Positions 14,269-34,927 of a stretch of DNA of 47,044 nucleotides are shown here, in pieces (position 1 is the stretch's first letter; each line of letters begins with the position of its first letter). The position numbers and the translations under genes were made by a program. The notes under the pieces are model-generated. The model was not told the origin of the DNA. It saw only the letters and a list, made by a program, of their open reading frames with translations, and did no database searches. The stretch is taken from the NCBI GenBank assembly GCA_021802045.1, contig JAKABB010000010.1:1-47044 (forward strand), read 5' to 3'. This stretch comes from a bacterium. Lineage in GTDB: Bacteria > Chloroflexota > Dormibacteria > Aeolococcales > Bog-877.

Positions 14269-15222
14269 CTAGGGGACCGTGACCGGGGCCAGGGCGGCGC
14301 TGTTGGTGATCGTGATCGGGTTGGCGCCGGTGCCGCTGATCACGGCGGCGGTGGAGCTGTAGACCCCGGGAGGGACGAAGGACATCACCCGCGCCTCGAA
14401 GGCCACGGTCAGCACCCCCGGCCGGTTGCCCGAGGCCCCGGGGATGCTGAACCCCGACCAGTTGGGCACCGTGGTGCCCTGGTTGGGCATGACCGCGCCC
14501 GAGCTGCTGGCGTTGCCGCCGGTCGAGAGCGTGCGCAGGAAGATGAAGTTCTCGGGCAGGGTCACGGAGAGGGTCGTGGTCCCGGACGGGCCCGCCCCGG
14601 TATTGGTCACCACCGCCTGGTAGAGCACGGTCTTCCCGGCCGGGACGGTTGGCGGCGTCGCCCGCAGGGACAGTTGCAGAGCCGCCGCCGGGCTGACCGA
14701 GATGGCCAGCGTGGGGCCCACCAGAACGCTGCTGGTGCCGGCGGCGAAGACCCTGGGGGCCAGGCTGTAGTGGCCGGGGGCGCCGGTCGCCCTCAGGACG
14801 ATGGTCAGCACCACCTGGGAGGGCACCCCGGGGACGCTGGGTCCGAGCTCCCAGGCGCCCCACACCGGGACCGCGGCCCGGGTGGCGGGGTCGACGTCGG
14901 CGGTCCGGACCACGTCCCCGTTCTCGGCGGCGCTGGTGGTGTCCACGTAGGTGAACTGGTTGGGCAGGGCGATGCGCACCGCGACCCCGCTCACCGAGCG
15001 GTCGGTCTGGTTGGTCACCGTCACCTGCAGGGTGGCGCTCTGCCCCTCGGGCACCGCGGACGTGCTGACCTGCCCTCCCGGGCCCAGGAGGACGCTGGAC
15101 ACCTTGAGGCCGGTCACGCCGCCGCCCCCCCCGCAGCTGGCGAGCAGGCCCGCCAGTCCGGTCGCGACCACCGCCCCGCCCAGGAGCAGGGAGCCCGGCC
15201 TGGCCCGACGCCCCACGATCAC
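14269..15222 (-). CDS. Surface lipoprotein with repeated immunoglobulin-like (DUF11/CARDB-type) domains
   Basis: The protein has 317 residues. A basic start and hydrophobic stretch lead into lipobox LASC with Cys30 as the acylation site, so it should be exported and lipid-anchored. Two repeats share the pattern ATLQVTVTNQTDRSVSGVAVRIALP and VLYQAVVTNTGAGPSGTTTLSVTLP, followed by FTYVDTTS or FIFLRTLSTGG. This is the conserved-repeat (DUF11-like) beta-sandwich found in cell-surface proteins. Ligand is unknown. The GTG at 15222 is chosen for GGAG eight bases upstream and because it begins the signal peptide. It lies 40 nt after maf. Confidence 0.8.
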   Translation of the reverse strand: MIVGRRARPGSLLLGGAVVATGLAGLLASCGGGGGVTGLKVSSVLLGPGGQVSTSAVPEGQSATLQVTVTNQTDRSVSGVAVRIALPNQFTYVDTTSAAENGDVVRTADVDPATRAAVPVWGAWELGPSVPGVPSQVVLTIVLRATGAPGHYSLAPRVFAAGTSSVLVGPTLAISVSPAAALQLSLRATPPTVPAGKTVLYQAVVTNTGAGPSGTTTLSVTLPENFIFLRTLSTGGNASSSGAVMPNQGTTVPNWSGFSIPGASGNRPGVLTVAFEARVMSFVPPGVYSSTAAVISGTGANPITITNSAALAPVTVP

Positions 15223-15262: not shown

Positions 15263-15940
15263 TCAGCGCGGACCGAGCGCCATGCGGCTGGGGCCGGCCA
15301 GGGGCCGGCGCACGACCGCCGTCTTCCCCAGGGCCAGGTGCCAGTCGGGCGCGGTGGGCAGGGGGTTGGGGTAGCCGACCTCGCCGAGGAGGCGGAGGGC
15401 CAGGCCACAGTCGAGCCCGATGACGGTGTCCATGCGCCCGGCCACCGCCTCCACCAGGGCGCCACCCGACCCCTGGACGGCGTAGCCCCCAGCCTTGTCG
15501 AGCGGTTCGCGCCCGGCCACGTAGTTCTCCAGCTCGGTGTCGTCGAAGCTGCGCATCCGGACCGCTGACCGCGAGACGCCCATGGACTCCTGCCCGGTCC
15601 GGGTGCTGAGGGCGCACACCCCGGTCAGGACCAGGTGGCGCTGCCCGCGCAGCACCCGCAGCATCTCCCGAGCCCGATCGGGGGTGCCGGGCTTGCCCAG
15701 CGGGCCCCCGGGGCCGACGACGATGGTGTCGGCGGCGACGACGTAGGCGTCCTGCGCCTCGAAGCGGGCCGCCACCTGGTGGACCTTGGCCCGCGCCACC
15801 AGCTGGATGGCGAGGTCGGCGCAGAGGCCGGGTCGCATCGGCTCCTCGCTGGTGGGCAGGCTCACCAGGAACCGCAGTCCGAGGCGCTGCAGCAACTCCC
15901 GCCGCCGGTCCGAACTTGAGGCCAGGACGAGCTCAGCCAT
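15263..15940 (-). CDS. maf: Maf-family nucleoside triphosphate pyrophosphatase
   Basis: The protein has 225 residues. It shows the N-terminal LVLASSSDRRRELLQRLGL signature, the central VVAADTIVVGPGGPLGKPGTPDRAREMLRVLRGQRHLVLTGV block, and the end DKAGGYAVQGSGGALVEAVAGRMDTVIGL. Maf enzymes hydrolyse dTTP, UTP or modified nucleotides and limit their incorporation. The C terminus is about 25 residues longer than usual. The ATG at 15940 gives the family N terminus; an ATG 20 codons upstream (16000) is less likely. It follows the membrane cassette after 53 nt. Confidence 0.92.
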   Translation of the reverse strand: MAELVLASSSDRRRELLQRLGLRFLVSLPTSEEPMRPGLCADLAIQLVARAKVHQVAARFEAQDAYVVAADTIVVGPGGPLGKPGTPDRAREMLRVLRGQRHLVLTGVCALSTRTGQESMGVSRSAVRMRSFDDTELENYVAGREPLDKAGGYAVQGSGGALVEAVAGRMDTVIGLDCGLALRLLGEVGYPNPLPTAPDWHLALGKTAVVRRPLAGPSRMALGPR

Positions 15941-15993: not shown

Positions 15994-16770
15994 CTAGCAT
16001 CGCCCCACCGCCGGCCCGTGGACGGCGTTCGCGGCCCGGAGCGCCCAGACCCCCCGCCAGCCCAGCGCCAGCCCCACCGAGACCCCGGCCCACAGCCCCA
16101 GCGCGGCGGGCACGGGCCAGGCGTGCAGGCCCGGGACCCACAGGAAGGTGCAGATGGCGGCGTGGCCGGCCCAGCGGATGGCGGCCGGCCACGGGACCGG
16201 CCCCCCGGCCGCTCCCGCCCCGCTGAGGGTGGGCAGGAGCACGGCGGCCAGAGCCCCCACCACGATGCGGGCGGCCAGCGCGCCGGGTCCCGCCGGCCCC
16301 AGGAGGGCACCCCAGCTCGCCCCGTGGAACCACAGGCCGAGCCCCAGCAGCGGTGTGATCCACAGCAGGTGGGCGACCGCGTCCCAGTCGGCGGCGCGCC
16401 GCCACCCGGCGGCCGGGACCTGAGGGGCCCGCCCCCGGGGCCGGGCCCACAGATCCGCGGCCCAGAGGGCAGCGACCGCCAGCGCCGGTCCCCCCAGGAC
16501 CAGCGGCGGGCCCGCAACCGGAAACTGGCCCACGGGGCTGTCGGGCCAGGGCAGGGTGCAGACCCCGATCCCGGCCAGGAGCAGGATCGGCAGTGCCGCC
16601 AGGGGCGGGCCCATCCGGGGTGCGCCCCACCGGGCCCGCGGGTGGCGCGGCCCGGGACCGGGCAGCGCGGCCGACCCGGCGGTCACCGCCGCCACCAGGA
16701 GGCCGGCGACGCCGGCGGGGTAGATCCCGATGGCGGCGCAGAGCGCCAGGGCGGAGACGAAGGTGTTCAC
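15994..16770 (-). CDS. Membrane protein, last gene of the antiporter-like cassette
   Basis: The 258-residue hydrophobic protein has about 7 or 8 predicted membrane segments and no lysine. It has no confident family match. The loop RHPRARWGAPRMGPPLAALPIL followed by hydrophobic helices is faintly like NuoH/HyfC, the quinone-side subunit of complex I-type enzymes, but the NuoH signature motifs are not clear. The GTG start overlaps the preceding gene by 4 nt (GTGA), so it belongs to the same translational unit. If the cassette is an energy-coupling complex, this would be its smallest channel or anchor subunit. That role is inferred only from position. Confidence 0.6.
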   Translation of the reverse strand: MNTFVSALALCAAIGIYPAGVAGLLVAAVTAGSAALPGPGPRHPRARWGAPRMGPPLAALPILLLAGIGVCTLPWPDSPVGQFPVAGPPLVLGGPALAVAALWAADLWARPRGRAPQVPAAGWRRAADWDAVAHLLWITPLLGLGLWFHGASWGALLGPAGPGALAARIVVGALAAVLLPTLSGAGAAGGPVPWPAAIRWAGHAAICTFLWVPGLHAWPVPAALGLWAGVSVGLALGWRGVWALRAANAVHGPAVGRC

Positions 16771-18035
16771 CAGTGGACCCCGAAGATCACCGCCAGCACC
16801 GGAGCAGGCCCCAGCCCCAGCGCCACCGCGCCCACCGCCGGGGCCCAGGCCAGGGCCGCCGCTCCCAGTCGTGGCCGACGGCCCTGGCCCGCCCTCGGCC
16901 CGCGGACCTCCACCGCGCCGCGGAGCGCCGCCGCCAGCTGCAGCAGGAGGACCGGCACCACCAGGGCGACCGGCACCGGCCCCAGGTACGTCGCCGCCAC
17001 CAGGACCAGGAGGCGGGCGGCGAAGCCCCCCCCCGGAGGCAGCCCCGACACCCCCAGCCAGCCGGTGACCGCCGCCCGGGTCGAGGGCGAGGGGCCGTCG
17101 AGGGTGATGGCGGCGATCCAGTGGAGGACCAGCAGGAGGAGGGCCGCGGCCAGACCGGGCAGCGTCCCGGTGGCCACCGCGGCCGCCGCCAGCGCAATGT
17201 CCGCCATCCGCAGGCGGGGGTAGCGGGTCGCGGGCGGTCCCACCAGCGCCAGGCCCCCGGCCACGACGGCGGAGGCCAGGCCGAGTCCGAGCACCAGCGC
17301 CTGGAGCGCGCCGGCTACCGCCACCGGCAGGCCGACCAACACCCCGGCCAGGCACAGGAGCGCCGCCGGGGCGGCGAGGGACGCCCAGAGCGCACGGTCG
17401 ACCGCCGGCACCTCCTCGGCCATGAGGCCCCAGCCCTGGAACGGCAGGAGCCCCAGCGGCACCGCCAGCCCCGCGGCGAGGGCCAGGGCCGGCAGGGCGG
17501 CGGGCGCGCCGCCGCCCCGCACCGAGGGCAGCAGGGCAGCGGTCGCCAGCAGGCTGCAGCCGACGATCCCCACCAGGCGGAGTCCGATCGGGCTCCGGGC
17601 CGCCTCGCTGGCCACCGCCCAGCGGTGGGCGCAGACGCCGAGGATGGCGGCCAGGGCGAAGGCGAGCGGCGCCAGGCCCGAGACGCTGAGGGCCAGCGTG
17701 GCCAGGCCGGCCAGGGCGATCCCCGCGGCCACCGATCCCGGGGCCAGCGGCCGCCCACCCGGGACCAGGGCCCGCAGGGTCAGGGCCGCCACGCCCCCCG
17801 CCACCACCCCGGCACCGGCCCGGGTGAGAGCCAGGCGACCCAACCCGATGGTCCCGACCGCCAGCGCCGCCGGCCGGGGGGGGGCCAGATGGATGAGCAG
17901 GGCCAGCGGCCAGGCGCCGGCGAGGAGCAGGAGCGGGAGCAACCACCACCCCGGGGCCCGGCCGGGGTACAGGCCGCCGGCCAGGGCCGCCGCCACGAGG
18001 GTGACGGCCACGCCCCCCAGCAGGGCGGCGCTCAC
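16767..18035 (-). CDS. Proton-antiporter-like membrane protein (NuoN/NuoM/HyfF superfamily, divergent)
   Basis: The protein has 422 residues and about 12 membrane segments. Homology to the complex I antiporter-like subunits is visible in LRMADIALAAAAVATGTLPGLAAA (the SSI-x-G helix region) and above all in GLPPGGGFAARLLVL, the GxPPxxGFxxK motif with Lys replaced by Arg. The TM7-8 equivalent is LPFQGWGLMAEEVPAVDRALW, where the family usually has PFHxWxPxA plus channel lysines. No lysine exists in the protein. The usual length is 450-530. GTG start and GTGA overlaps lie on both sides. Function as a pump is unproven because the proton-path lysines are missing. Confidence 0.7.
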   Translation of the reverse strand: MSAALLGGVAVTLVAAALAGGLYPGRAPGWWLLPLLLLAGAWPLALLIHLAPPRPAALAVGTIGLGRLALTRAGAGVVAGGVAALTLRALVPGGRPLAPGSVAAGIALAGLATLALSVSGLAPLAFALAAILGVCAHRWAVASEAARSPIGLRLVGIVGCSLLATAALLPSVRGGGAPAALPALALAAGLAVPLGLLPFQGWGLMAEEVPAVDRALWASLAAPAALLCLAGVLVGLPVAVAGALQALVLGLGLASAVVAGGLALVGPPATRYPRLRMADIALAAAAVATGTLPGLAAALLLLVLHWIAAITLDGPSPSTRAAVTGWLGVSGLPPGGGFAARLLVLVAATYLGPVPVALVVPVLLLQLAAALRGAVEVRGPRAGQGRRPRLGAAALAWAPAVGAVALGLGPAPVLAVIFGVHW

Positions 18036-18619
18036 GGGACGGGGCTCGGGCCGCGCCACGGGAGGGCGCCGACGATGCAGACGACCGCCGGCAGCCCGGC
18101 GGCCAGGGCCGCCACCGGCAGCACCAGGCTGCCCCCGGTGATGAGGAGATAGACCGCCACCGCCAGCCCGCTGGCCAGCAGGCCCCAGGTGAGCTCCGCC
18201 GTGCTCCGGGCCAGGCCCACCCGGACCAGGCCCACCTCCCAGAGCACGGTGCAGCTGAAGACCGGCGCCGCGGTGACCACGGTGCCGGCCACGGCGTGGC
18301 TGGCGACCCATCGAGCCACCAGCAGCGCCCCCACGCCCAGGACCACGCGCCCCGCACGTCCGAGGAAGACCGCGCTGGGGTCCACCGCAGCCTCCGATCG
18401 GGGGGACCAGCGGGCGCTGAGGACGAACGCGGCGGCCACCAGGGTGCCGAGGGCGCCCAGGAGCAGCAGGACCGGCAGTCCCGCCTCCAGCCCGCCGAGC
18501 CCGCCGGTGGCCCAACCCAGGCACAGTGAGGCCGCCGCCCGGCCGCGCGGCCCGTCCACCAGCAGCGCCATGGCCGCCGCCAGGGTGCAGGCCAGGGCCA
18601 CCAGGTCGGTGCCGCTCAC
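18032..18619 (-). CDS. Small multi-pass membrane protein (HyfE/NuoK-like by position)
   Basis: The protein has 195 residues, about 6 membrane segments and no lysine. Size, hydrophobicity and position between two antiporter-like genes match HyfE of hydrogenase-4, or a NuoJ/NuoK-type subunit. No motif is strong enough to decide. Acidic residues within hydrophobic stretches (LWEVGLVRVGL, TAELTWGLL) could serve proton transfer. It overlaps both neighbours by 4 nt, so it should be made in fixed ratio with them. Confidence 0.55.
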   Translation of the reverse strand: MSGTDLVALACTLAAAMALLVDGPRGRAAASLCLGWATGGLGGLEAGLPVLLLLGALGTLVAAAFVLSARWSPRSEAAVDPSAVFLGRAGRVVLGVGALLVARWVASHAVAGTVVTAAPVFSCTVLWEVGLVRVGLARSTAELTWGLLASGLAVAVYLLITGGSLVLPVAALAAGLPAVVCIVGALPWRGPSPVP

Positions 18620-20379
18620 CGCCCCACCAGCAGCCAGGCCAGGGCGCACCCCACCGCCAGCGCCAGCCACCCGGGGTAGGCGACCAGCGCCCGCACCAAC
18701 ACCTCCGCGACCCGGGGGACGTGCCGGTGCCCCTGGGTCGCCCACCCGTCCAGGATGCGCCCGGCCCCCGCCAGGGGCCAGGGGGCCAAGCCCTCCCCGG
18801 CCGGTGGGGTCGCCGCCGCGCCAGTGGGCGGGCGCGCGGGGGCGAGGGCGGGGGCGGGCGGGCCCAGCGCCACCCGGGCGGCCACCCAGAGCCCGAGGAC
18901 CAGGGCCACGATCCCGCACAGGTAGCCGCCGGGCCAGGCCACTCCGTCCACGGCAGCGGTGAGCCAGCCGGGGGTGACCAGGGAGCTGGCCGTCGCCGTG
19001 GGCGAGCCGACCAGCGGTACCACCACGTAGCGGAGCACGGCGCCGGGCAGCACCGCCGCCACCGCCAGCAGCACCCCCCCGACGATCGCCTCCAGCGGAG
19101 GCCAGGGGCGGGCCAGGCCCCGCCCCGGACGCCCGTGACCGGGCGCGGCGCCGCGGACGGTGCCCAGCACCGCGGGGATCCCGGCCAGGCCGGCGAGGAC
19201 CGCGAACATGGTGGCGAGCCCGTCCGGGAAGCCGGTGGCCATGGTCGCCCCGAGCAGGAGCACCACCCCGCCGGCGGTGAAGGAGGGGGGCACGGCGCCG
19301 GCCAGGAGGAGCGCGGCGGGAACCAGGCGGCCGACCCGGGGATCGGCGCGCGGCCGGCTGGCCCAGGTGTAGAGGGGCCAGGCCGTGGCCGCCGCCAGGA
19401 GCAGCCCGATCCCCAGGAGCCCGCCGACCACGGTGGCGGTGGGCCTGCCGAGGGCGAAGGCGGCGAGGACGAACGCCGCCAGGCTCACCTGGACCGCCTG
19501 GACGGCCCCGCCGACCGTGCCGCGGGTCCGCCATGCGGTGAAGCTGGCCCCGACCCCGAGGGCCGCGCCGCAGAGGGCGAGGACCAGGCCCACCCAGGGG
19601 GCGGGCCAGTGGCCCCCGACCAGTTGCAGCACCCGCAGCAGGCAGGCGAGGGCGACGGGCACGCCCGCGACCGCCACCCACCACCCGGTCGGGTGGGGAG
19701 TGTCCCCGGCCGAACGGGCCGAGGTCGTCTCCAGCGCCCAGCCGGCGCTGAGGCGCATCCCCGCAGGCGCCAGGAGGGCCAGGGCCAGCCCGGGAGCGAC
19801 CGCCGCCGGAGGGATGGCGACCAGCTGGGCGGAGCCGGTCGCGCTCCAGAGCAGCACCGCGCCGATGAGCCAGGGCAGCGCCGTCGCCTGGTTCAGCGCC
19901 ACCGTCACCAGGATCCGGCGCCCGAGCGGGAGGGACGCACCCAGCACCAGGCCGAGGTCGGAGAGGACCAACCCGGCGTAGACGGTGAGCAGGTCGCCCC
20001 CCAGAGCGACCAGGAGAGCGCCGAAGGCCGCCGTGAGGACGGGCGTCAGGGTGCGCCGGGCACCGGTCGGCCCCAGGGTCACGGCGGCCGCCAGGGCCGA
20101 GACCAGGATCGCCAGCACCACCCCGGTGGAGTCCGCGCGCAGGCCCAAGGACAGGCCCGGAGCGACGGCCCAGAGTCTCACGGTGACGTGGCCGGCGGGC
20201 AGGACCACGGGCAGGCACCAGCCGGCCGCGGCCAATGAGAGCACGGGGGTGGCTCGCGCCGCCCAGCGCAGGGCCTCGACCGCCCGGGACGCCGGGACGG
20301 TGGAGGGCAGCAGGAGCGCCAGGGTGGCCCCCGCCCCGAGGCTGGCCACCGCCGTGATCACGAGCCACGGGGGAGGCAT
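18616..20379 (-). CDS. Proton-antiporter-like membrane protein (NuoL/HyfB superfamily, divergent)
   Basis: The protein has 587 residues and about 14-16 membrane segments. The N-terminal half follows the NuoL/M/HyfB plan: LRADSTGVVLAILVSALAAA (the DxLS-type helix), GALLVALGGDLLTVYAGLVLSDLGLVLG (where the family has its TM5 Glu; here Ser-Asp), and LLWSATGSAQL (the LYxxTG block). The TM7-8 equivalent (MRLSAGWALETTSARSAGDTP) keeps a Trp but not the HxWLPxA motif. There are no lysines in the whole protein. A hydrophilic loop and a final helix form the C-terminal end. It is the first gene of the cassette, 50 nt after valS; GGCGG precedes the ATG. Confidence 0.7.
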   Translation of the reverse strand: MPPPWLVITAVASLGAGATLALLLPSTVPASRAVEALRWAARATPVLSLAAAGWCLPVVLPAGHVTVRLWAVAPGLSLGLRADSTGVVLAILVSALAAAVTLGPTGARRTLTPVLTAAFGALLVALGGDLLTVYAGLVLSDLGLVLGASLPLGRRILVTVALNQATALPWLIGAVLLWSATGSAQLVAIPPAAVAPGLALALLAPAGMRLSAGWALETTSARSAGDTPHPTGWWVAVAGVPVALACLLRVLQLVGGHWPAPWVGLVLALCGAALGVGASFTAWRTRGTVGGAVQAVQVSLAAFVLAAFALGRPTATVVGGLLGIGLLLAAATAWPLYTWASRPRADPRVGRLVPAALLLAGAVPPSFTAGGVVLLLGATMATGFPDGLATMFAVLAGLAGIPAVLGTVRGAAPGHGRPGRGLARPWPPLEAIVGGVLLAVAAVLPGAVLRYVVVPLVGSPTATASSLVTPGWLTAAVDGVAWPGGYLCGIVALVLGLWVAARVALGPPAPALAPARPPTGAAATPPAGEGLAPWPLAGAGRILDGWATQGHRHVPRVAEVLVRALVAYPGWLALAVGCALAWLLVGR

Positions 20380-20429: not shown

Positions 20430-23054
20430 TCACTCCCCCAGCATCTCCCGCAGCGCGCGCGCGCGCCGCCGCGCCTCGTCCAGCTTGGTCCGCGTGCGGT
20501 CGACCACATCGGCCGGGGCCCGGGCGGCGAAGGGGCTGGCCAGCTTGGCCTCCAGGTCGGCGACGTACGTCGCCACCCGGGTCAGCTCGCGGCCCAGCGC
20601 CACCGGGTCGGGTCCCCTCTCCGCGTCCGGGAGCCAGAGGGCCAGCTCCGTGTGGCCCACCACGATGCGCAGCGCGCCCTCGGGGTGGGCGCCGTCGCCC
20701 GTGGCCCGGTCGACCCACTCCACGCCCGCCATCTCCGCGACGTACTGGCGCCCGGGGGCCTCGCGGATCGCGGCCGGGCCGGCCACCAGGCGCAGCCGGG
20801 GCCGGGGGCCGCCGGCGCGATGCCGCCATCCCGCCTCCCGTTCGGTGCCGCGCACGGCGCGCGTGACCTCCAGGCAGTGCGCCATCGTCTCGCGAGCGGC
20901 CTCGTCCCGCATGGTGGCGTCGACCACCGGCCAGGGGGCCAGGTCCAGCGTCTCCGGGACCCCGGCGAAGCGGCTGGCACAGGCGTCGGTGACAAAGGGC
21001 ATGACCGGGTGGAGCATCGTCAGGGTGCTGAGCAGCGCGTGGCGGGCGGTGGCCAGGGCCGCCGGATCGCCGGCGGCCAGCCGCCCCTTGATCAACTCCC
21101 AGTACCAATCGGCCAGCTGGTGCCAGGCGAAGTCGTACAGGGTGTCCACCGCCAGGGTGAGGTCGAAGGCCAGCAGCGCCGCGGTGACCGTGTCCACGGT
21201 GGCGGCGAGGCGGTCGAGGATCCACCGGTCGGCCAGCTCCTGGGCCGGCGGCGTGGGCGCGGGCAGCTCCGCGATCCGGCCGCCGTCGTCGTGGGGCAGC
21301 CGCGTCGCCAGCAGCCGGGTCATGTTCCAGAGCTTGTTGGCGAAGCGCCGGAAGGCCTCGATGCGCCGCTCGTCGAAGCGTGAGTCCTGGCCGCTCATGG
21401 CGATCGAGGCCGCCCAGGCCCGCGTGGCGTCGGCCCCGTAGCGGTCGATCATCTGCAGGGGGTCCACCACCACCCCCCGGGACTTCGACATCCGCTGCCC
21501 GTCCGGGCGCAGGACGGTGGTGTGGACCAGCACCGCCCGGAAGGGGACATCCCCGGCGAAGCGCAGCCCCATCATCACCATGCGCGCCACCCAGAGGCGG
21601 AGGATCTCGCGGGCGGTGCTGACGACGTCGGTCGGGTAGAAGCGCCGCAGGTCGGCGGCGTCCTCGGGCCAGCCGAGGATGGCGAAGGGCCACAGGGCGC
21701 TGGAGAACCACGTGTCGAGGACGTCGGGGTCGCTGGTGAGCTCCGAGCTCCCGCAGCTGGGGCAGCGCGACGGCTCCTCGATCCAGGCGAAGACGTGCTG
21801 GTTGGCGCAGGTCGACACCGGGATCCGGTGGCCCAGCCAGATCTGGCGGCTGATGCACCAGTCCTGGAGCTGGTCGAGCCAGCCAAGGTACTCGTCCCCG
21901 TAGCGGCTGGGGTGGAAGGTGATCGCCCCCCGGCGCACCGCAGCCGCCGCCGGCGCGGCCAGTTCGGCGGTCCGGACCCACCACTGGGGGGTGACCAGCG
22001 GCTCGATCACCGTCCCCGAGCGGTCGCAGTGGCTGACCTGGTGGACCACCGGCTCGGTCCGCACCAGGGCCCCGGCCTCCTGCAGCAGGGTCGCCGCCAC
22101 CGCACGCGCGGCCGGGACCGCGAGCCCGTGCAGCCGCGGCAGATCCGGGGTCGCCATGGTGCCGTCGAGGGCCACCACCGTCAGCACCGGAAGCCCGTGG
22201 CGGGCCCCGATGGTGTAGTCGTCGGTGGCGTGCCCGGGAGTGATCTTGAGGGCGCCGGTGCCGACGGCAGGGTCGACCAGGGGGTCGGCGATGACCGGGA
22301 TGACCCGCCCGGTGAGCGGCTCGATCACCTGCCGCCCGACCGCGTCCCGGAAGCGGGGATCGTCGGGCGGGACCCCGACGGCGACATCGGCCGGGATCGT
22401 CTCGGGGCGAGCGGTGGCCACCTCCAGGCTGCCCCCGCCGTCCGCGAAGCGATAGCGGACGTAGTAGAAGGCGTCCTCCCGCTCGCGGTACTCGACCTCC
22501 TCGTCGGAGATGGCACTGTGGCAGACCGGGCACCAGTTGACGATCCGGGGCCCACGGTAGATGAGCCCCTGGTCGAAGAGGTCGCGGAAGACGCGCCGGA
22601 TCACCCGCACGTAGGCTTCGTCGAGGGTGAAGCGCTCCCGGGGCCAGTCGCAGGTGACGCCCAGGCGGCGGAGCTGGTCGAAGATGACCCCCTGGTACTC
22701 GGCGTACCACCGCGCCACCCGGGCGTCGAAGGCCTCCCGGCCGATGGCCTCCTTGGAGGTGCCCTCCTGGGCCAGCTGGCGCTCGATGATCGCGTTGGTG
22801 GCGATCGCCGCATGGTCGGTCCCGGGGACCCAGCAGACCTCGGCGCCCCGCATCCGGTGGAAGCGGGCCAGGGTGTCCTGGAGGGTGCCATTGAGGGCGT
22901 GGCCCAGGTGGAGGGCCCCCGTGATGTTGGGGGGCGGCAGGGCCATGCTGAACGCGGGCCGGTCGCTGCCGGCATCGGCGTGGCCGAGCTGCAGCCCGGC
23001 CCAGACCGCGAGCCACTGCGGCTCCACCGCCGCCGGGTCGTACTGGCTGTCCAT
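20430..23054 (-). CDS. valS: Valyl-tRNA synthetase
   Basis: The protein has 874 residues, the normal size. Class I signatures are HLGH in ITGALHLGHAL (about residues 49-52) and RMSKS in DGQRMSKSRGVVVDP. The editing domain contains GTDHAAIATNAIIERQLAQEG and the PRPETI-type block. CPSCGSSELTSDPDVLDTWF is the zinc-type insert followed by the conserved DTWFSS. The C-terminal arm (last 60 residues) is the coiled coil that grips tRNA. It charges tRNA-Val. The start at 23054 lies 20 nt after the metE stop. The frame is open further upstream but that part overlaps metE. Confidence 0.96.
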   Translation of the reverse strand: MDSQYDPAAVEPQWLAVWAGLQLGHADAGSDRPAFSMALPPPNITGALHLGHALNGTLQDTLARFHRMRGAEVCWVPGTDHAAIATNAIIERQLAQEGTSKEAIGREAFDARVARWYAEYQGVIFDQLRRLGVTCDWPRERFTLDEAYVRVIRRVFRDLFDQGLIYRGPRIVNWCPVCHSAISDEEVEYREREDAFYYVRYRFADGGGSLEVATARPETIPADVAVGVPPDDPRFRDAVGRQVIEPLTGRVIPVIADPLVDPAVGTGALKITPGHATDDYTIGARHGLPVLTVVALDGTMATPDLPRLHGLAVPAARAVAATLLQEAGALVRTEPVVHQVSHCDRSGTVIEPLVTPQWWVRTAELAAPAAAAVRRGAITFHPSRYGDEYLGWLDQLQDWCISRQIWLGHRIPVSTCANQHVFAWIEEPSRCPSCGSSELTSDPDVLDTWFSSALWPFAILGWPEDAADLRRFYPTDVVSTAREILRLWVARMVMMGLRFAGDVPFRAVLVHTTVLRPDGQRMSKSRGVVVDPLQMIDRYGADATRAWAASIAMSGQDSRFDERRIEAFRRFANKLWNMTRLLATRLPHDDGGRIAELPAPTPPAQELADRWILDRLAATVDTVTAALLAFDLTLAVDTLYDFAWHQLADWYWELIKGRLAAGDPAALATARHALLSTLTMLHPVMPFVTDACASRFAGVPETLDLAPWPVVDATMRDEAARETMAHCLEVTRAVRGTEREAGWRHRAGGPRPRLRLVAGPAAIREAPGRQYVAEMAGVEWVDRATGDGAHPEGALRIVVGHTELALWLPDAERGPDPVALGRELTRVATYVADLEAKLASPFAARAPADVVDRTRTKLDEARRRARALREMLGE

Positions 23055-34265: not shown

Positions 34266-34658
34266 TCAGCCGCGGGCAGGACGGATGAGCTGGACGGCGA
34301 TGCCGACCGACAGCCCCGTCCAGAGGTGGTCCGCGGTCACCGCCGGCGCGTCCAGGCGCCGCGCCAAAGCCAGGCAGGCGCGATCCCCCAGGGAGAGGCC
34401 CTGGCCAGACACGTGTGGGTAGAGGGCGGCAACGGCCAGTGCATCGGTGTCGGTGAACGGCTCCACGTCGACCTGGGCCCGCACCGCTTCCAGGACCCGC
34501 TCGGCATCACGGTGGTTGCGGGTCAGCACGGTCGCCACCTCGGCGAGATTGACCGTACTCACAGCGGCCCCGCCGGCGACCACCTCCGCCACCGCCTGCG
34601 CGCCTGGCTCGTCGAACAGGAGAGCGAGCAGCGCCGAGGCATCCACCACTGCGGTCAC
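34266..34658 (-). CDS. vapC: PIN-domain ribonuclease toxin
   Basis: The protein has 130 residues. MTAVVDASALLALLFDEPG has the first metal-binding Asp. NLAEVATVL supplies the conserved Glu, and SLGDRACLALARRLDAPAVTAD the third and fourth acids. All four PIN acids are present, so the nuclease should be active. The GTG start overlaps the AbrB-type antitoxin stop by 4 nt. It is unrelated in sequence detail to the PIN toxin at 3917-4300 and is paired with a different antitoxin class. Confidence 0.9.
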   Translation of the reverse strand: MTAVVDASALLALLFDEPGAQAVAEVVAGGAAVSTVNLAEVATVLTRNHRDAERVLEAVRAQVDVEPFTDTDALAVAALYPHVSGQGLSLGDRACLALARRLDAPAVTADHLWTGLSVGIAVQLIRPARG

Positions 34659-34927
34659 CGGAGCGACCGGCCAGCGTCGGTGTCCTCATCGGCGGCCTCG
34701 CTCTGCCGCTGGGCGCGCAACTCCTCGACGGTCGAGTGATCGGCCCGACCGGCCAGGCCGATCAACGCCCGGGCGGCCGCTCGTCGGCTCACCACTCGCA
34801 GGACTCCGTCCGCCTCCTCGCTCACCACCAGATCCTCACCTGGCCGCAGGTCGAGCCGGCGGCGCAGCGCGGCTGGCAGCACCAGCCGCCCTCGCTCGTC
34901 AAGCCGGGCCGTCCCCCTCATCAGCAT
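34655..34927 (-). CDS. AbrB/SpoVT-type antitoxin
   Basis: The protein has 90 residues. The N-terminal swapped-hairpin DNA-binding motif is clear: TARLDERGRLVLPAALRRRLDLRPGEDLVVSEE. The C-terminal half (ADHSTVEELRAQRQSEAADED) is helical and acidic and should neutralise the PIN toxin. ATG 34927 follows a TATCAT box by 10 nt with no Shine-Dalgarno; a second ATG two codons on (MRGTARLDE) is also possible. It probably represses its own promoter. Confidence 0.88.
   Translation of the reverse strand: MLMRGTARLDERGRLVLPAALRRRLDLRPGEDLVVSEEADGVLRVVSRRAAARALIGLAGRADHSTVEELRAQRQSEAADEDTDAGRSLR

Follow-up and report, generated by a model that had tools for sequence, protein, structure and literature searches.

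The antiporter-like fold is mostly known from modules that move ions or are coupled to protons, and the ion pair, the central lysine and the distal lysine or glutamate of the pump are held to be residues of transmembrane helices (TM) 5, 7, 8 and 12 (PMC9271201, PMC11496545). There is a precedent for antiporter-like subunits that lack part of the canonical residues: in HycC of the Escherichia coli formate hydrogenlyase (FHL) the TM7 position is naturally Leu208, and H2 production did not drop significantly when several other conserved residues of HycC were mutated (PMC9474812). Operons made up of membrane proteins only are also known, the Mrp Na+/H+ antiporters being encoded by such a multi-gene operon with NuoL/NuoN-like subunits (PMC5703873). 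The subject of this study is a cassette of four membrane-protein genes, A-B-C-D, at positions 15994-20379 on the minus strand of contig JAKABB010000010.1 (assembly GCA_021802045.1), of which the whole 47,044-nucleotide stretch was analysed and is called the window below; named relatives and taxonomy place the organism in Candidatus Dormiibacterota (genome GC content 77%). A and C are, on profile comparison, divergent members of the antiporter-like superfamily (NuoL/M/N/HyfB/HyfF type), and the relay residues that could be mapped in them are all replaced. It is rather probable that the four proteins form one headless membrane-arm complex, derived from a Hyf/FHL/complex I-type module and devoid of a canonical proton relay.

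Composition of the cassette and homology of its proteins

Gene A (18616..20379, 587 amino acids), gene B (18032..18619, 195 amino acids), gene C (16767..18035, 422 amino acids) and gene D (15994..16770, 258 amino acids) are joined on the minus strand by GTGA overlaps of 4 bases (A/B 18616..18619, B/C 18032..18035, C/D 16767..16770), as an earlier note made from the sequence alone had described them. All four frames are backed by codon statistics, and the GTGA coupling suggests that the genes may be co-expressed. Beyond the open reading frames, A and C were characterized by hhalign and residue maps (with conservation for A and a class-wide alignment for C), B by AlphaFold and substitution rates, and D by AlphaFold and fold matches in the PDB.

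Profile-profile comparison was carried out in hhalign with profiles deepened with Dormibacterial and E. coli sequences, and nine unrelated polytopic proteins served as controls. The A profile matched NuoL (97.5%), NuoM (97.4%), NuoN (97.2%) and HyfB (95.3%), and the C profile matched NuoN (98.3%, over C residues 3-412 and thus nearly full length), NuoM (97.9%) and HyfF (97.7%), whereas all nine controls remained below 1% with A and with C; for the antiporter core (PF00361, NuoL/M/N, HyfB/F) both proteins scored 94-98%. A is related to C as well (89%). The C profile recovers canonical Nuo subunits in the same genomes with E-values down to 5e-11, and outside the class the A profile reaches ordinary NuoN (E 2e-15) and HyfB (E 4e-15). 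In Pfam and NCBIfam scans none of the four proteins reaches any family cut-off, the best single-sequence match to the antiporter family PF00361 being that of C from one relative (L091; E 4.5e-4, below the cut-off), and a PDB sequence search with the profiles gave only weak NdhD matches for C and no match of use for the other three proteins.

The AlphaFold model of D (predicted local distance difference test, pLDDT, 79; predicted template modelling score 0.80) is matched best in the PDB by the fold of HycD from E. coli (probability 0.89), with NuoH, ND1, and NdhA lower down. All six PDB matches with a probability of at least 0.5 belong to HycD, NuoH, ND1, or NdhA, with template modelling scores (TM-scores) of 0.39-0.48 relative to query length and Foldseek E-values above 0.1, and on this model D probably has a HycD/NuoH/ND1-like fold. 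By sequence, NuoH/HycD homology of D stayed at control level in hhalign, below 1% with the profile of the window's order and with the merged profile and 0.9-1.5% with that of a sister lineage. D of the window contains neither glutamate nor lysine, and only three of its residues (M1, Y17, P18) are invariant across two lineages. The AlphaFold model of B (pLDDT 86.7) has six helices. B was considered as HyfE or NuoK by sequence or fold, and this was dropped as unsupported, there being no profile match and no consistent PDB fold match. B directly precedes the HyfF-like gene C, as hyfE precedes hyfF in the window genome and in E. coli, and one might guess from gene position alone that it is the HyfE counterpart.

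The earlier note had recognized two proteins of the complex I/hydrogenase-4 antiporter superfamily, which agrees with the results for A and C; as a count of complex I-related proteins two is too low, D probably being a third by its predicted fold. Of the relatives that it had named for comparison, NuoL/M/N, HyfB, and HyfF are matched by A and C, but B and D have no profile match and DabB did not rise above background.

Relay positions and lysine depletion

In C, the alignment map places P193 at the TM7 lysine (NuoL K229, NuoM K234, NuoN K217), P223 at the TM8 lysine (NuoM K265, NuoN K247), R341 at the TM12 lysine or glutamate (NuoL K399, NuoM E407, NuoN K395), and A309 at NuoL K342, and of the histidine positions NuoL H338 corresponds to H305 and NuoM H322 to D279. 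P223 and R341 do not vary among the 19 sequences aligned, which come from two lineages. In A, the TM5 glutamate aligns with V138 and the TM12 lysine or glutamate with V372, the TM7 lysine is replaced by R209 (NuoM alignment) or A212 (NuoL and NuoN alignments), and the TM8 lysine by P241 (NuoM alignment) or V240 (NuoN alignment). The TM7 lysine, TM8 lysine, and TM12 lysine or glutamate of the relay are replaced in both A and C, and the TM5 glutamate is replaced in A, with TM5 of C unmapped. The loss of the relay lysines that the earlier note had proposed is seen at every mapped position in both proteins, and its exchange of the GFxxK lysine for arginine corresponds to C R341. Two of its details need correction: the TM5 glutamate, read there as Ser-Asp, aligns with A V138 instead (D141 is not conserved), and the channel lysines that it calls essential are not universal in known members, since E. 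coli HycC has leucine at the TM7 position (PMC9474812). As far as the alignments map it, the cassette departs further than HycC, TM8 and TM12 being lost too.

The absence of lysine from all four proteins, also reported earlier, was confirmed (0 in 1462 residues). From 32 other hydrophobic proteins of the window genome, with 105 lysines in 13573 amino acids, about 11 would be expected in A-D. Base composition explains part of this absence, and the absence alone is not decisive, because single lysine-free membrane proteins do occur in this 77% GC genome, namely a major facilitator superfamily protein (491 amino acids) and NuoM2 (525 amino acids). Lysine depletion is nevertheless a trait of the family, because 82 cassette homologues hold 16 lysines in 29054 amino acids, and in three relatives with 56-59% GC the cassette lysines are still few, while their ValS has 15-25. 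The canonical Nuo/Hyf subunits of the window genome have 4-8 lysines each, yet most of their TM7, TM8, and TM12 relay residues are retained. Composition removes dispensable lysines and channel lysines persist where they are required, whereas in the cassette the channel lysines are lost; it is as a family trait, set against canonical subunits that keep most of theirs, that the absence becomes informative.

Distribution, genomic context and selection

A class-wide profile detected gene A in 105 of the 110 class genomes, among them all 37 of good quality, and in 36 of 37 genera. Of the 50 genomes from the window's order, 46 have gene C, usually as a single copy. Among 400 genomes spread over the phylum, no A-profile match outside the class exceeds 60 bits. 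The phylum-wide search with the C profile returned only the window's order and weak matches in ordinary antiporters, and sister lineages were recognized through their rsfS neighbour. Homologues with intact lysines inside ordinary nuo or hyf operons, which according to the earlier note would have refuted its reading, were looked for. Outside the class the best A-profile matches score far lower and belong to NuoN, HyfB, and NuoL-type subunits of the ordinary kind, encoded in nuo- or hyf-like clusters; within the class, the loci inspected have the cassette linked to valS. The cassette is a vertically inherited and near-universal core locus of the class Dormibacteria. In the open literature (subscription papers and preprints lay outside the search), no paper describing this locus was found.

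Every cassette inspected, across the window's order and at about 24 sister-lineage loci, follows valS (20430..23054, minus strand, in the window), and the order A-B-C-D after valS recurs in the window's order and in one sister lineage. In the window's order the four genes are followed by maf (15263..15940, minus strand), a fixed downstream neighbour, and family f2 has an additional gene for a one-helix protein before A. In the sister lineage (e.g., L157, L175, L189) A-B-C-D are followed by mreB-type genes or rplU; at L175 (1046-7349), judged by gene size, order, and sequence start only, the cassette lies just upstream of mreB, mreC, mreD, PBP2, and rodA-like genes and then rplU. A third lineage (e.g., L148) has a one-helix double-zinc-ribbon (DZR) protein, A, a protein of 520 amino acids, and then maf, and in a fourth lineage (L140, L150, L151) none of these genes lies between valS and rplU. 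B and C were considered, from their lengths, as the two halves of the 520-amino-acid protein, but this protein matches the C-terminal part of C only (79%) and does not match B. No hydrophilic large or small subunit of group 4 hydrogenase, Ehr, or complex I type lies beside the cassette at the inspected loci, where the neighbours are valS and maf, mreB-type genes, or rplU; the flanking genes valS and maf and the missing hydrophilic partner had been noted earlier for the window and are confirmed.

Two neighbours may be of interest as partners. The one-helix proteins encoded between valS and A in family f2 (L092, 12420-12890) and in the third lineage (L148, 944-1411, with the DZR at the C-terminus) are homologous, are absent from the window's family, and are candidate assembly or regulatory partners. 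A DUF11 protein that is secreted and has a lipobox-like sequence (LLASCGG) at its N-terminus (window 14269..15222, minus strand) adjoins maf in the window's order and in the third lineage, and is a possible extracytoplasmic partner of the cassette. Elsewhere in the window (34266-34927), a small protein of AbrB type and, after it, a PIN-domain-like protein are, by eye only, a probable VapBC-like pair.

In five congeneric genomes, the ratio of nonsynonymous to synonymous substitution rates (dN/dS) was 0.17 for A, 0.05 for B, 0.11 for C, and 0.26 for D, B being the most constrained of the four, and 0.10 for valS, 0.13 for obg, and 0.05 for maf. Since the frames are supported by codon statistics and dN/dS lies at 0.05-0.26, A-D are real genes under purifying selection. 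The suggestion of a structural relic kept under selection accordingly survives in its second half, whereas a decaying relic does not agree with these ratios and with near-universal retention in the class.

Interpretation and comparison with known systems

An origin from a Hyf/FHL-type membrane arm is indicated by the parts list (HyfB-like, B, HyfF-like, HycD-like) and by the place of B directly before the HyfF-like gene. On the reading preferred here, the ancestor of A-D would be the membrane arm in an enzyme of the Hyf/FHL/complex I type, and the block has lost the hydrophilic (catalytic) arm together with all mappable lysine and glutamate relay residues, an invariant arginine (C R341), a conserved aspartate (C D279), and proline having taken their places. 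The four proteins would assemble without a redox arm and would not pump protons by a Lys-Lys-Lys/Glu relay, and the fold may instead be used structurally, in a membrane complex, or offer a route to something else than relayed protons. Complex I-type pumping by the cassette is very likely absent, because there is no catalytic arm at the inspected loci and no mapped relay residue. Being conserved, constrained, and mostly present as a single copy, the cassette must do something, presumably in a structural or assembly role or as a passage for something else through the remodelled interior of A and C. More tentatively, and with somewhat less confidence than an even chance, the class-wide complex may have given up redox arm and relay for a new function, be it transport of a different solute or a role in the envelope or in assembly, in which arginine, aspartate, and proline replace the relay.

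Several points weigh against the headless-arm reading. The Foldseek E-values of D are all above the level given above and sequence profiles lend D no NuoH-like support, B has neither a profile nor a fold family, and the N-terminal third of C aligns solely in the deepest profile, which leaves its TM5 unmapped. The loss of the known relay is also compatible with another proton path, E. coli HycC lacking part of the relay (PMC9474812), and the assembly of A-D into one complex and any function of theirs rest on inference.

The same module might still couple to ion movement by a different path, energized by an unlinked partner such as a Hyf/Ehr or complex I hydrophilic arm encoded elsewhere in the genome, which we regard as unlikely. 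The window genome does have nuo genes and two Hyf/Ehr-type clusters, a Complex1_49kDa protein occurs in 47 of 50 genomes of the order, and HycD/NuoH-like proteins normally anchor a hydrophilic arm; however, D of the window, with no glutamate and so few invariant residues, contrasts with the glutamate-rich coupling loop and E-channel of HycD/NuoH (PMC9474812), and in G021, a genome 91% complete, the cassette is present and a Complex1_49kDa match is missing, although incompleteness could explain this. Of the two clusters, that on contig C102 (L052, G000:C102) reads HyfC-HyfE-HyfF-49 kDa-small protein-20 kDa-HyfB, and that on C127 (L051, G000:C127) is similar. G021 (L088, L220) also has a NuoLMN-like set, and nuo genes are present in its congener G028.

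A second lysine-poor NuoKLMN-like set is found in the class at L054 (G000:C187, 8393-13752), L217 (4455-10027), and L246-L265, with no dehydrogenase genes nearby. That this set and the cassette are halves of one large non-pumping membrane complex is a distinctly improbable reading. The set resembles the cassette in its substitutions: in family f1 the TM7 lysine is replaced by arginine and the TM8 lysine mostly by proline (proline or leucine in the NuoM copy), and in the window genome (C187) E144, K234, K265, and E407 of the NuoM copy read L, R, P, and L, while the TM12 residues K399 of the NuoL copy and K395 of the NuoN copy are arginine. It also has matches across the class, including other families and G021, which has no nuo. 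The set is, however, unlinked to the cassette in the genome, its partly degenerate versions in f2 still have some titratable residues where the cassette has none, and A and C are no closer to it than to canonical NuoM/NuoN, so that descent of A and C from this set is likewise unsupported.

An inorganic carbon transporter unit of the DIC or DAB type without its soluble half, raised in the earlier note, can be set aside as highly improbable: DabB is indeed an antiporter-like protein acting outside complex I with one partner (PMC13144422), but it matches A and C with a probability of at most 0.4%, no better than unrelated proteins, no DabA-like gene is present at the locus, and the window genome already has a probable DabB/DabA pair on another contig (L053, G000:C77, 8290-12437; an antiporter-like gene of 534 amino acids, then a large hydrophilic gene of 848 amino acids). 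The strong divergence inside the order, at about 30% identity, and the rarity of lysine in the window genome might point to a slowly decaying, neutral remnant of an old hyf or nuo operon, or to a mere effect of base composition, but this reading is largely refuted and scarcely credible given dN/dS values of 0.05-0.26 (against 0.10 for valS and 0.13 for obg), retention of A in every good-quality genome of the class, lysine depletion that persists at 56-59% GC, and invariant proline and arginine at two relay positions of C.

If the headless-arm reading is true, a fold kept with every mapped relay residue dropped would offer models of proton pumping by complex I a natural negative control, and would be evidence that a membrane arm can serve another purpose. 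The cassette is also a near-universal core locus of an uncultured soil class, Dormibacteria, and one that Pfam and NCBIfam leave unrecognized.

Compared with described systems, the cassette is most like E. coli FHL (HycC-HycD) and hydrogenase-4 (HyfB/C/E/F), with the same probable set of parts, in which A resembles HyfB, C resembles HyfF, D resembles HycD in its probable fold, and B stands next to C where HyfE would be. In FHL and Hyf, by contrast, the catalytic arm is encoded within the same operon, and HycC retains TM5 Glu135, TM8 Lys239, Lys336, and TM12 Glu391 and HycD its glutamate-rich channel, whereas the cassette has none of the mappable residues. With complex I it shares A and C, which align nearly full length with NuoL/M/N profiles, and the resemblance of the D model to NuoH/ND1, but the cassette locus has no hydrophilic Nuo subunits, and the TM5 glutamate (in A), the TM7 and TM8 lysines, and the TM12 lysine or glutamate are replaced. 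With DabA/DabB (DAB2) it has in common an antiporter-like protein outside a redox complex, and differs in the lack of DabB similarity above background and of DabA. Mrp antiporters consist of six or seven hydrophobic proteins and are not known to include a HycD/NuoH-like protein. Both they and the cassette are membrane-only operons, and it is the gene content, a four-gene set with a probable HycD-like fold, rather than an Mrp profile, that sets the cassette apart and argues against an Mrp antiporter. The fold families are known, and their combination in a class-wide core locus with neither redox arm nor relay did not turn up in the open literature searched.

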